NCBI GenBank assembly: GCA_021202635.1
Contig: JAJQCQ010000093.1
Location: forward strand, 62,001 to 126,000
Length of the DNA stretch: 64,000 nt
Direction: 5' to 3'
From: Lachnospiraceae bacterium
Lineage (GTDB): Bacteria > Bacillota > Clostridia > Lachnospirales > Lachnospiraceae
Below are positions 1,955-13,115 of this stretch, in pieces; the first letter of the stretch is position 1; each line of letters opens with the position of its first letter. Below the pieces are notes generated by a model. The model was not told the DNA's origin. It ran no database searches and worked only from the letters and a program-made list of their open reading frames with translations. The translations under genes and the position numbers were made by a program.

Positions 1955-2482
1955 TCAATACTCTGGCTCGATCAGTCCGTAGGTGCCGCCTTTTCTCTTA
2001 TAGACGACGTTCACCTCTTCTGTCTCCGCGTTCCGGAATACATAGAAGCTGTGTCCGAGGAGCTCCATCTGTACGCAGGCGTCTTCCGGATACATGGGCT
2101 TCATGCCGAAATGTTTGGTGCGGATGATCTTTACTTCTTCTAACGGCTCGGACTCTTTGTCGATGAACTCCTGGCGGAAGTTGCTGCCGCCCTGGTGACG
2201 GTCGATGATTTTTTCCTTGTATTTGCGAAGCTGGCGCTCGATGACTTCTTCCACAAGGTCGATGGAGACGTACATGTCGTTGCTGACCTGCTCGGAGCGG
2301 ATGATGTTGCCCCGTACCGGGATGGTCACCTCTATTTTCTGTCTTTCCTTCTCAACGCTCAGCGTGACGATGATTTCGGTGTCGGAAGTAAAATAACGCT
2401 CGAGTTTTCCAAGCTTTTCCTGAATGGTGATCCGTAAATTGTCAGATACCTCAATATTTTTTCCACTGATAATAAACTTCAT
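1955..2482 (-). CDS. hpf: Ribosome hibernation promoting factor, long form
   Basis: The N-terminal S30AE/YfiA domain (about residues 1-100: KFIISGKNIEVSDNLRITI...) binds the decoding region of the 30S subunit. The C-terminal domain (about 115-175, KHFGMKPMYPEDACVQMELLGHSFYVF) dimerises 30S subunits, giving inactive 100S ribosomes in stationary phase. The length of 175 residues fits the long HPF of Firmicutes. I chose the ATG at 2482 because AAAGGAG lies nine bases before it, whereas the ATG three codons upstream abuts the ribosome site. It is a single gene with its own promoter and terminator. Confidence 0.93.
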   Translation of the reverse strand: MKFIISGKNIEVSDNLRITIQEKLGKLERYFTSDTEIIVTLSVEKERQKIEVTIPVRGNIIRSEQVSNDMYVSIDLVEEVIERQLRKYKEKIIDRHQGGSNFRQEFIDKESEPLEEVKIIRTKHFGMKPMYPEDACVQMELLGHSFYVFRNAETEEVNVVYKRKGGTYGLIEPEY

Positions 2483-7839: not shown

Positions 7840-9216
7840 CTATTTTCCCGCTGCTTTCCGCGCCGCCAGCCGCTCTTCCTTTGTCTTCCAGTAGCACTCG
7901 AAGACCGGAATGATCAGGAACGCGACGATGCCGCAGGTGAAGCCGCCGTTGTACAGGCAGAACCCGCCGTGCAGCAGAGGAACACTCATGACGAGCGTCG
8001 CGTGCAACGCTCCGGCAATGACGCCGCCCCAGAAGCCGTATTTTCCGGAGACCGGCGCGAGGCCGCTTGCGAAGCACATGCCCACCAGGATGGCCTGTGT
8101 CGTCAGTGTCCAGTTCTGGACGTCGGTCACGCCGCCCACATACATGAAAAACGGGAGCAGCGAGGCGATCGCGTAGCCGACCATGATCGGAAATACCGTC
8201 CGCGGCTGGGCGCCCTGCGCACAAAACGCGTACATACACATAATCGCGCCCATGGTCGCGCCGGTAAACTTCGCACCGGTAAAGACAATCTGCCCGTCGG
8301 TCATGGTCATTCCCTGTACTACATTGTAGTAAAGCAAAATAAACAGACCGTAAACGGCCATATTGACCAGCGTCGCCGGCATACCGAACACAGCGGTATA
8401 GTCTGTCTTATAACCATCGCTGGCCCAGAGCTTTTTGTACAACTTCAGACAGTCGTGATCCAGCACCCAGGCTGCCGCGAAGCACAGCAAAAATACGATG
8501 ATAAAGAATACATTGACAAACAGTCGGTGGCCGTCTCCCAGATTTGTGTTGGAAGGAACCTCTACCCCCGGGGAACGATATAATACGCAGTATACCAGAA
8601 ATGCCAGAAATCCGGCGGCCGGTCCTGCGTTATAAAGATCATATCCTTTGTGAAATGCCGGTGCGTGCGCGCACAGGGACGGCATCGCGCAGCCAACCAC
8701 AACGCCAAGCACGATCGCCAGCAGCAGTCCCACAAAGCTGAAGCCGCTGGTCTCCAGGTTCGGATAGCGGAACATCAGTTCCATCGCAAACGGCGCCAAA
8801 GCGGTGGAAAACATGGCCATGTTGGCCACGCTGCCAAAAGAAACCTTCTTGATTCTGGAATACACCCACACGCCGAAGAAAAACGGCCAGATGCTGACAA
8901 ACGTCATACCGAAGGTAGCGAACCCCACATTCAGCCAGTAAGCAGCCACCGTCAGACCAGTGCATTTCGCTTTTGTAAAATAAAGGAGTGCGCAGCAACC
9001 CAGCCCCACCATGCCGGTATTCAAAAACGAGCTTCCCAGTCCGCCAAGCACGAAATAATCCATCGTAAACTGGGACGGTCTGGTATTGATCGTGATAAAT
9101 CCGGGAATCAGATTTCTGATGTCCCCGGCAAAAAGAGAGCCGATGATAAACGCAATGGAAAAGCCAAGCAGAATCTTAAAAATCAGGCTGCTGTTATCTT
9201 CCTCTTTAATCTTCAT
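7840..9216 (-). CDS. DUF1576 integral membrane protein
   Basis: The 458-residue protein has about ten to twelve hydrophobic helices and begins with a short charged tail (MKIKEEDNSS) and ILLGFSIAFIIGSLFAGDIR. Gly-rich helices such as VLGGLGSSFLNTGMVGLG and a repeat-like C-terminal half (YGFWGGVIAGALHATLVMSV) fit the DUF1576 family. These look like transporters or channels, but no substrate is known. The start has AAAGG upstream. A family A repeat separates it from fhs. Confidence 0.8.
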   Translation of the reverse strand: MKIKEEDNSSLIFKILLGFSIAFIIGSLFAGDIRNLIPGFITINTRPSQFTMDYFVLGGLGSSFLNTGMVGLGCCALLYFTKAKCTGLTVAAYWLNVGFATFGMTFVSIWPFFFGVWVYSRIKKVSFGSVANMAMFSTALAPFAMELMFRYPNLETSGFSFVGLLLAIVLGVVVGCAMPSLCAHAPAFHKGYDLYNAGPAAGFLAFLVYCVLYRSPGVEVPSNTNLGDGHRLFVNVFFIIVFLLCFAAAWVLDHDCLKLYKKLWASDGYKTDYTAVFGMPATLVNMAVYGLFILLYYNVVQGMTMTDGQIVFTGAKFTGATMGAIMCMYAFCAQGAQPRTVFPIMVGYAIASLLPFFMYVGGVTDVQNWTLTTQAILVGMCFASGLAPVSGKYGFWGGVIAGALHATLVMSVPLLHGGFCLYNGGFTCGIVAFLIIPVFECYWKTKEERLAARKAAGK

Positions 9217-9479: not shown

Positions 9480-11165
9480 TCAGAACAGTCCGGAAATCTT
9501 TCCTGTCTCATCTACATCGATACGCTCTGCAGCCGGTACCTTCGGCAGACCAGGCATGGTCATGATGTCGCCGGTCAGTGCCACGATAAAGCCTGCACCT
9601 GCAGAGATCTTAAGGTTGCGAACCGTAACCTCAAAATCAGTCGGTGCGCCGAGCTTGTTCGGATCATCTGTCAGAGAGTACTGGGTCTTCGCTACGCAGA
9701 TCGGGCAATTGCCATAGCCCATATCCTCGAGCTGCTTCGCCTGCTTCTTCGCTTCCGCCGTCAGGACTACGCCCTTGCCGCCGTAAATTCTCTGAACGAT
9801 GGTGTTCAGCTTGTCTTCGATGCTGCCTTCCAGCTCATAGCTGAAGGAGAAGTCGTTCGGCTCTTCTACCAGACGGATTACTTCCTCTGCCAGCTTGATG
9901 CCGCCTTCGCCGCCCTTTGCCCATACCTCGGACAGAGCCACGTTTACGCCCAGCTCACGGCACTTGTTCTCAACGAGATCCAGCTCCGCCTTTGTATCGG
10001 TCGGGAATGCGTTGATCGCAACTACGCACGGAAGCTTGTATACGTTCTTAATGTTGCTGACATGTTTCAGCAGGTTCGGAAGACCCTTCTCCAGCGCTTC
10101 CAGGTTCTCCTGATTCAGATCCGCCTTCGGAACGCCGCCGTTGTACTTCAGCGCACGAACCGTCGCTACGATAACGACCGCGTTCGGATGCAGGCCAGCC
10201 ATGCGGCACTTGATGTCCAGGAACTTCTCAGCGCCCAGGTCTGCACCGAAACCAGCCTCTGTGATCGTGTAATCCGCGAGCTTGAGAGCGATCTTCGTCG
10301 CCGTTACGGAATTGCAGCCATGCGCGATGTTTGCGAATGGTCCGCCGTGAACGATGGCCGGTACATGCTCCAGCGTCTGTACCAGGTTCGGCTTGAGGGC
10401 ATCCTTCAGAAGAGCTGCCATCGCGCCCTGTGCATGCAGGTCGCCGGCAGTCACCGGTTTCTGCTCTGAAACCTTGCCATAGGTATAGCCAACAATGATT
10501 CTGGAAAGACGCTCTTTCAGGTCTGTGATATCGCTTGCCAGGCAAAGCACTGCCATGATCTCGGAAGCTACCGTGATGTCATAGCCATCCTCTCTCGGTA
10601 CACCATTGGTCTTTCCGCCAAGGCCGTCTACCACAAAACGAAGCTGACGGTCGTTCATATCCACGCAGCGTCTCCATGTGATCTTGCGCGGGTCAATGTT
10701 CAGCGCGTTGCCCTGATAGATATGGTTATCCAGCATAGCCGCCAGCAGGTTATTCGCTGCGCCAATCGCATGGAAATCGCCTGTGAAGTGAAGGTTGATA
10801 TCCTCCATCGGAACAACCTGTGCATATCCGCCGCCGGCAGCTCCGCCCTTTACACCAAATACCGGTCCGAGAGACGGCTCACGCAGCGCTACCATAACAT
10901 TCTTGCCAAGCTTCTGAAGGCCATCTGCCAGACCAACGGTCGTCGTCGTCTTGCCCTCGCCAGCCGGCGTCGGGTTGATTGCTGTCACGAGAACGAGCTT
11001 GCCATCCTTCTTATCTGTCTCACGAAGCAGGTTGTAGTCGATCTTTGCCTTATACTTGCCATACTGCTCCAGATACTTCTCGTCAATCCCTGCCTTTGCC
11101 GCGATCTCCGTAATCGGGGACATCGGTGTTTCCTGTGCGATTTCAATGTCAGATTTAAATCCCAT
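9480..11165 (-). CDS. fhs: Formate--tetrahydrofolate ligase
   Basis: This cytosolic enzyme makes 10-formyl-THF from formate, THF and ATP, feeding purine synthesis and one-carbon metabolism. The 561 residues show the P-loop [18 protein letters not shown] (about 67-84), the family block [20 protein letters not shown] and the C-terminal [18 protein letters not shown]. Length and start match the family, with GGAGAGGAG upstream of the ATG. It is preceded by a 500-base leader containing what I read as two riboswitches, so expression is probably tied to purine precursors and folate. It appears to be transcribed alone. Confidence 0.97.
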
Positions 11166-11306
11166 AGCTAAAAAATCTCCTCTCCTTATAAATACCAGTG
11201 GTGAAAATGAAGAAAGACGTCAGCCAGAGCCCTGCCCTGGTATTCCCGCGACATGTCTGTGAAATGGCTCTTATCCGAAAAGTCGAAAAGAAGCTTAAAA
11301 AGGCAC

Positions 11307-11376
11307 AAAAAACTGCGCAGGGAATTATTTGCCATGATATCTAATGATATCTGGCACGCCATCCTTCTGAACGCAG
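11307..11376 (-). terminator. Candidate terminator of the THF riboswitch expression platform
   Basis: On the minus strand CTGCG (11376-11372), which overlaps the 3' strand of the aptamer closing stem, can pair with CGCAG just before six T (11312-11307). An inner GCCA...TGGC hairpin with a GATATC core lies between. Mutual exclusion with the aptamer stem would give a folate-controlled switch. The pairing is by eye only. Confidence 0.45.
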
Positions 11377-11470
11377 TAGTGGAAGCGATACCGTAACGCG
11401 GAATAACTCCTTCGTTCACAACAAAGACCTTCCCATCATGTGACACTTAACGTACCGTATCTACTCTACC
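11373..11470 (-). ncRNA. Tetrahydrofolate (THF) riboswitch aptamer
   Basis: The minus strand reads GAGTAGATACGG, then the highly conserved GTTAAGTG, a TCACA/TGTGA stem enclosing GATGGGAAGG, then ACGAAGGAG, and closes with GTATC and CTACT complementary to the start. The order and the invariant bases (GUAG, CGUUAAGUG, GGGA, CGAAG) match the folT/THF motif as I know it from Clostridia. It lies about 210 bases upstream of fhs, a folate enzyme. Confidence 0.85.
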
Positions 11471-11550
11471 TGTAACCTCCCATGACCTCTCTTTTCAGCC
11501 GGTCCTGAGAGCATTACCCGTAACAATATAGAATTATTCGCGGAGGTTCT

Positions 11551-11593
11551 GAAAAGAAAAAGGACAGCATAATAGAAATGAATCATGCTGTCC
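11551..11593 (-). terminator. Intrinsic terminator behind the ZTP-type aptamer
   Basis: GGACAGCAT (11593 side) pairs perfectly with ATGCTGTCC across a short loop and is followed by TTTTTCTTTTC on the minus strand. Its 5' arm is the conserved CTGGACAGC segment of the aptamer, as in ZTP riboswitches, where ligand binding blocks terminator formation. Confidence 0.75.
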
Positions 11594-11665
11594 AGACGGT
11601 CGACAAAATTATTATTTTGATTACCTTGTGGTGCTCCACTGGTCCGTCAGCAATCAAAGCCTCTC
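11588..11665 (-). ncRNA. ZTP (pfl-motif) riboswitch or close variant
   Basis: The closing stem is TTTGATT/AATCAAA. Between its arms are CTGACGGACCA and a small GTGG/CCAC hairpin, matching the family's CUGGCGAACA plus P2 layout. Downstream comes GACCGTCTGGACAGC, the counterpart of GACCGCCTGGGCA. The pseudoknot pairs GACGG with CCGTC instead of GGCG/CGCC, which is a compensated change. The usual GGGGAGC after P2 is reduced to AAGG, so I call it a variant. ZTP riboswitches are known upstream of fhs and purine genes. Confidence 0.65.
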
Positions 11666-11676
11666 ACTTGCCACTC

Positions 11677-11705
11677 ATTATACCAAACCAAAAAACATTT
11701 GTCAA
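11677..11705 (-). promoter_or_regulatory. Consensus promoter of the fhs leader
   Basis: TTGACA (11705-11700) and TATAAT (11682-11677) are perfect consensus hexamers with a 17-base spacer on the minus strand. The transcript would start near 11670, just before the ZTP-type aptamer. Confidence 0.85.
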
Positions 11706-11746: not shown

Positions 11747-12610
11747 TCAGTACATCTGACGAAGCAGGCAATTCACGAGGATTGCACAGATCTCCCGCAA
11801 AGCGTTGTGGGGCAGCATACCGATATCGGACGTGGCCGAAAGGCCATATACATCCGTATAGCCCTGCTCTCTGGCATACCAGAGCGCCCGGTAAATATGA
11901 AAATTATTCGTGATCACGCCAACCGAACTGCTTACTTCCTCTGCTGCATCACTTCCGGATAATCGTCGTATGACAGCGGCAGAGTACTTCAGATTCTCCT
12001 GGGTGCTAGTCGATTCCTCCTCCAGGATCAGCCGGTTTTCCGCAATCCCGGCTTCCGTCAGATAACGGTACATACACTCCGCTTCCGAAATATCTTCGTC
12101 CGCTCCCTGTCCCCCGGAGAGAATCAGAAGCGTATCCGGGTGCTCTCTGGCGTAAGCAGCCGCGCGTTCCAGCCGATTTTTCAAAGCACGGGAGGGAGTA
12201 GTCCCGCGAACCTGCGCCCCGAGTACCACCAGATACTCCAGCTCCTCTTCGGAAGCAGAGTAAGCCAGTGGCGGCAGAGGATTTTGTTTTCCCTCGTCAA
12301 AACCCGCGGCTGCGAGCGAGTAGCTGCCATCCGTGCGCATGGCGGAAAATACGCGGCTGCCGATTACCAGAACAACCACAAGCGCCAGCAGCAGCAAGGC
12401 AGACACCGCTCCTGTCGCAAAACGAAGAAGGCTCCCCGGATGTTTTTCCAGGTAATGCTCTCCCCCGCACAGCAGGAGCAGAATCGCACCGCCCAGAACC
12501 CAGATCCAGGCAAAGCTTGTCGAGAGCCCGGCATAGGATACGATTCCGGCATAATACAAAAAGCAAAGGATGCCTAAACTTAAGCATCCTATCTCAAAAG
12601 CATGTCTCAT
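11747..12610 (-). CDS. YdcF/SanA-family (DUF218) membrane protein
   Basis: Three or so transmembrane helices fill the first 90 residues. The DUF218 domain follows (about 125-285), with LVVLGAQV, NRLERAAAYA, LILSGGQGADEDISEAECM and VITNNFHIYRA, the characteristic family blocks. Members are implicated in envelope or peptidoglycan barrier functions, though the reaction is uncertain. I prefer the ATG at 12610 with AGG upstream; a GTG 15 bases earlier would overlap the SEC-C gene but lacks a ribosome site. It is in one direction with, and directly after, the SEC-C gene. Confidence 0.82.
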   Translation of the reverse strand: MRHAFEIGCLSLGILCFLYYAGIVSYAGLSTSFAWIWVLGGAILLLLCGGEHYLEKHPGSLLRFATGAVSALLLLALVVVLVIGSRVFSAMRTDGSYSLAAAGFDEGKQNPLPPLAYSASEEELEYLVVLGAQVRGTTPSRALKNRLERAAAYAREHPDTLLILSGGQGADEDISEAECMYRYLTEAGIAENRLILEEESTSTQENLKYSAAVIRRLSGSDAAEEVSSSVGVITNNFHIYRALWYAREQGYTDVYGLSATSDIGMLPHNALREICAILVNCLLRQMY

Positions 12611-12614
12611 ATGA

Positions 12615-13115
12615 CTACCTGCCACAACAGTATTTGTATTTTTTGCCGCTTCCGCAGGGACACGGATCGTTCCGGCCGACCTTTTTCCCTTTCACAACGG
12701 TGTTCATCTTCTTGGCCTCGATATACAGCGCATGCCGTTTGTCCGCGTCAAAAATATTCTCCCACGCCGGGATGTTGTACAGCCAGTCTGCTCTCGCGTC
12801 TACCATATTTTTATAGAGCATCTCATTATCAAAATCCAGACTGACAGCGGTATCCTCATCCATCTCCTCGATGGGATTCGGCTGCTTCAGGCTCTCATTT
12901 ATGCCATCCAGAAAACCTGTCATCTCCATCACGGTCACATGGTACTTTTCCGCCAGCTCCTTCACCGTACCGGTGACTGCTTCCTCCGGATTTTCAAGAA
13001 GCTGCTCATAAATCGCTTTTTCCTTTCGAAAGTAATCCGACCAGAATCTCTGAAGCGTCTTCTTGTCCGTCTCCTGTGAATAGGCTGTGTTTCTCCAGGT
13101 TTCCAATAATCCCAT
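12615..13115 (-). CDS. SEC-C metal-binding domain protein
   Basis: The last 20 residues ([19 protein letters not shown]) are the SEC-C zinc-binding motif known from the SecA tail, with ligands CxCx8CC. The rest (about 140 residues) is helical and acidic without another recognised domain. The same arrangement occurs in uncharacterised Clostridia proteins. It is probably co-transcribed with the YdcF-like gene, whose likely start lies five bases after this stop. Confidence 0.8.

Follow-up and report, generated by a model that had tools for sequence, protein, structure and literature searches.

The gene for formate--tetrahydrofolate ligase (fhs; identified by profile matches to PF01268, 1.1e-275, and NF010030, 941 bits) is preceded by a leader of ~505 nt, running from a probable transcription start at about position 11670 to the ATG at 11165. 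We analysed this leader in the window, by which we mean the whole 64 kb stretch of DNA from a gut-type Lachnospiraceae bacterium. The earlier note had read in this leader a ZTP aptamer followed by a THF aptamer, with one promoter and two terminators, and this reading was borne out by Rfam matches, by the promoter sequence and by folding z-scores, its coordinates also fitting ours (Table 1). The neighbours of fhs, both on the minus strand, are a DUF218 (ElyC-like) gene upstream (11747-12625) and a DUF1576 gene downstream (7840-9216).

Table 1. Features of the fhs leader, in window coordinates
Feature	Positions	Strand	Basis or remark
Sigma-70-type promoter, TTGACA-17-TATAAT	11677..11705	-	12/12 consensus, TG before the -10
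ZMP/ZTP aptamer (pfl motif, RF01750), pseudoknot GACGG/CCGUC	11583..11664	-	Rfam, full length
Terminator 1: stem-loop 11593-11562 and U-rich tail	11552..11593	-	5' arm is the 3' strand of ZTP helix P3
Linker between the ZTP and THF switches	11471..11561	-	
THF-I aptamer (RF01831); helix P1 GUAG 11469-11466 / CUAC 11379-11376	11375..11470	-	Rfam, full length
Terminator 2: ACUGCG...CGCAGU stem 11377-11312 and U-tract to 11307	11307..11377	-	
Shine-Dalgarno-like AAGGAGAGGAG	11177..11187	-	Sequence
fhs, formate--tetrahydrofolate ligase, 561 aa	9480..11165	-	PF01268, NF010030

We compared the whole window with all Rfam models at their curated cut-offs, and the only two matches above cut-off were the two aptamers of this leader: the ZTP aptamer, with 50.7 bits against a cut-off of 39 (E 2.6e-5, model positions 1-86), and the THF-I aptamer, with 58 bits against a cut-off of 36 (E 1.8e-10, model positions 1-99). 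The covariance-model search that the earlier note had proposed as a check thus recovered both families at full length. The two aptamers lie 112 nt apart behind a single promoter and on the strand of fhs, the ZTP aptamer being 5' of the THF-I aptamer in one leader of a folate one-carbon gene. The pseudoknot that RF01750 places between the P1-P2 junction and the P3 loop is formed by GACGG/CCGUC. This pairing, together with a lost GGGGAGC, had been taken as the sign of a variant ZTP aptamer, a candidate that we rejected, since in our family sample GACGG/CCGUCU is the commonest pseudoknot (13 of 24 scorable ZTP loci) and GGGAGC is present in only 11 of the same 24 loci.

That two chance matches merely resemble a tandem is next to impossible, given that both are full length and exceed curated cut-offs, and this reading is refuted by conservation: the ZTP-THF order recurs in 20 of 40 genomes from the window's genus, and the gene that follows is fhs in all 20 (coordinates were paired by hand, requiring the ZTP match 5' of the THF match, on one strand and within 400 nt). 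The identity of the locus as a ZTP-THF tandem is therefore virtually certain. Across the same 40 genomes, ZTP matches were found in 36 and THF matches in 35. Some leaders hold one half of the arrangement. The THF aptamer stands alone before fhs in congeners G257, G261, G262, G274, G286 and G287, whose sequences are similar, and in G272 (G252, G258 and G276 were left out of this list, as a contig ends near the aptamer or the gene was not reached), while other fhs leaders carry the ZTP aptamer alone (L006-L009). Beyond the genus, a family sample of about one genome per genus contained the tandem in 8 of 250 genomes, six of them before fhs (two in the window's genus, four outside it) and two before a folT-like gene. 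A class sample contained it in at least 2 of 291 genomes, one of these tandems, in G406, preceding a folT-like gene. Both of these scans used stricter filters, and low-scoring THF matches of the class sample are not all listed, so that their counts are lower bounds. One further fhs leader (L013:2872-2989) has neither ZTP nor THF but another cis-regulatory RNA, FTHFS (RF02981).

The rest of the leader was compared among the relatives as well. A promoter can be read just upstream of the ZTP aptamer in seven tandem loci whose sequences were inspected, and the distance from the end of the ZTP aptamer to the start of the THF aptamer ranges from 56 to 283 nt. Reading of the linker and of the region 3' of terminator 2 revealed no third conserved element, lengths and sequences there varying among relatives. 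In the window, an inverted repeat, ATACCAG/CTGGTAT (11243-11237 and 11198-11192, minus strand), lies downstream of terminator 2, with its 3' arm near the ribosome-binding site, and an extra fold is possible there.

The genome that holds the window contains two ZTP and two THF matches in all, and the single switches sit where they would be expected, which we count as support for the tandem reading. The second ZTP match (L238, G000:C19:66000-70000, about 2367-2445, minus strand) lies before a split purH-like pair, one gene being IMP cyclohydrolase-like (PF07826) and the other of AICAR transformylase type (PF01808). The second THF match (L239, G000:C30:61500-65500), which has a long insertion (156 nt), precedes a folT-like gene for an ECF transporter S component (PF12822).

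Having both aptamers in place, we examined the terminator that follows each. Terminator 1 folds at -17.5 kcal/mol (z -6.95, with 0 of 200 shuffles as good), and its 5' arm, GGACAGC, begins with the 3' strand of ZTP helix P3, the overlap expected of transcriptional ON members of this class. A clear stem with the same starting point was found in 24 of 27 tandem loci, and among these loci the arms change in pairs (GGACAGC/GCUGUCC and GGGCAGC/GUUGCCC types). Known transcriptional ZTP ON switches have this same P3/terminator arrangement, and a published covariation model describes their aptamer together with the platform (PMC13273304). The ZTP half is thus structurally clear as an ON switch, and we consider it very likely to work as one, presumably by binding ZMP/ZTP. 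When ZMP/ZTP is absent, terminator 1 would capture the 3' strand of P3 and transcription would stop; when 10-formyl-THF is short, ZMP/ZTP should accumulate and bind, P3 and the pseudoknot would be held, and RNA polymerase would read past terminator 1. Single ZMP/ZTP riboswitches are known before fhs, purH, pfl, glyA and folD (PMC2864571), and the window shares with them the full-length aptamer, the terminator over its 3' region and the association with fhs, while its leader adds a second aptamer and a second terminator.

Past terminator 1, polymerase would meet the THF aptamer and terminator 2. A simple terminator scan found terminator 1 and missed terminator 2 because the loop of the latter is long and branched. 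Its stem nevertheless folds at -26.2 kcal/mol (z -4.19; none of 200 shuffles folded as well), and the ACUGCG...CGCAGU stem with its U-tract recurs in 34 of 36 fhs-type THF leaders, whose loops differ greatly. In these leaders the 5' arm starts within the 3' strand of P1, CUAC(U), and in the window A11377 and C11376 belong to both helices. Since the arm starts inside P1, P1 and the terminator base exclude one another by 2-3 pairs. An overlap of this kind is the geometry of an ON switch, while an OFF switch needs an antiterminator. It raises the alternative that both halves are ON switches, in which bound THF would hold P1, its 3' strand would be withheld from the terminator 2 base, and the full terminator would be blocked, so that expression of fhs would require both a shortage of 10-formyl-THF (ZTP high) and available THF, an output that would make metabolic sense, as THF is the enzyme's substrate.

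Several comparisons argue for such an AND gate. Blocking the P1 strand weakened terminator pairing in 20 of the 22 fhs terminator leaders that were read automatically and strengthened it in none. The automatic platform finder was misled by a false Shine-Dalgarno sequence in several fhs leaders. That of the window was one of them and is hence absent from these 22, but it showed the same geometry in a separate comparison of fhs leaders. Of 83 other THF leaders, only 11 showed direct overlap of P1 and terminator, and at least 2 of these 11 are fhs leaders truncated by a contig end. In most loci, a fold in which P1 is forced to form is less stable than the complete terminator 2, by about 2-5 kcal/mol.

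No clear antiterminator, which would speak for the opposite sign, was found. In truncated transcripts the 5' arm of terminator 2 often pairs with the 3' half of the aptamer, in many loci, and GCG ranks among the best of the 8 G/C triplets for this pairing (mean rank 1.7; best or second-best in most loci). Both results speak for an OFF switch, the ranking amounting to about one observation since the loci are related. Three loci, G263, G253 and G267, seemed to offer a persuasive local antiterminator (aptamer ...UAUCGCUUCC-GC with GCG..AAG/GAAG-GAU), a candidate that was rejected when the pairing of aptamer 3' half and terminator 2 5' arm proved no better than in shuffled sequences, with means of 3.7 observed and 3.7 shuffled pairs over 33 loci and a mean z of 0.18; only G253, G263, G267 and G270 exceeded most of their shuffles. 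A second candidate, core mimicry, in which the 3' arm of terminator 2 would pair with the aptamer core CGU[UA]AAG, was rejected as well (mean z -0.15, with only G105 strong).

Against the AND gate, the overlap spans just 2-3 nt, and terminator 2 may work without those nucleotides. THF leaders before folT-like genes are, moreover, regarded as feedback OFF switches. For this very tandem, the published prediction is likewise that THF turns expression off (PMC9481103). The evidence on the sign of THF thus conflicts. Because the overlap is small and the published prediction is OFF, we kept an OFF switch as somewhat the likelier sign for the THF half, and regard the AND gate as possible yet rather unlikely.

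A different alternative is that terminator 2 is a constitutive attenuator on which THF has no useful action, control resting with ZTP alone or with THF acting at translation. It is consistent with the predicted formation of terminator 2 with a probability near 1 in most loci when no ligand is present, and with two tandem fhs leaders, of which one (L146, G204) has lost terminator 2 and the other (L148, G179) its U-tract. We consider it improbable, as aptamer and terminator are kept together in the 34 leaders mentioned above, among them those of congeners that do without the ZTP half. In both L146 and L148 the two aptamers and CUACUGCG are retained, and the THF half may act differently there.

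To summarize, with the aptamers, the terminators, the P3/terminator 1 overlap and the conservation in relatives in hand from computation, we read the locus as a ZTP-THF-I tandem of known kind that probably acts as an A AND NOT B gate: bound reduced folate would most likely favour terminator 2, and fhs would be expressed only at high ZTP and while folate is not yet abundant. The earlier note had proposed that ZTP permits and THF restrains; the two-input gate is supported and had already been predicted (PMC9481103), and a restraining THF is plausible and agrees with that prediction, though our sequence tests point both ways.

This arrangement has a history. A 2022 survey of tandem riboswitches lists ZTP followed by THF-I as 'A AND NOT B', with a count of 10 (Table 2 of PMC9481103), and recounts that it was noted when both classes were validated, upstream of 10-formyl-THF synthesis genes (citing Kim 2015 and Ames 2010). 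The window matches it in order, classes, 10-formyl-THF gene context and proposed logic, with no established difference; what sets our analysis apart is the doubt that the sequence casts on the sign of THF. Compared with other THF-I riboswitches (RF01831), it shares the full-length aptamer and the folate gene, and differs in a direct overlap of 2-3 nt between terminator and P1, which most of the non-fhs THF leaders compared lack. The ZTP/glycine tandem of Bacillus and Oceanobacillus (PMC9481103) also places a second aptamer behind a ZTP ON switch, the second ligand there being glycine.

The tandem in the window is therefore real, conserved and already described (2010-2022), a further example whose arrangement a riboswitch specialist would find unsurprising. 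New here are its genus-wide conservation, the leaders that hold one half only, and the question over the sign of THF in fhs leaders. Our 27 tandem genomes compare with the 10 examples of the survey (PMC9481103), two sets that may overlap, and add well-conserved examples of a known natural two-input RNA gate. The sign of THF, which the survey gives as a prediction (PMC9481103), can be tested with a clear either/or outcome. Should the AND gate prove true, THF-I would work as an ON switch before fhs in this genus and its relatives, the tandem would compute ZTP AND THF, and a single aptamer class would have one sign upstream of fhs and the opposite sign upstream of folate-transporter genes.
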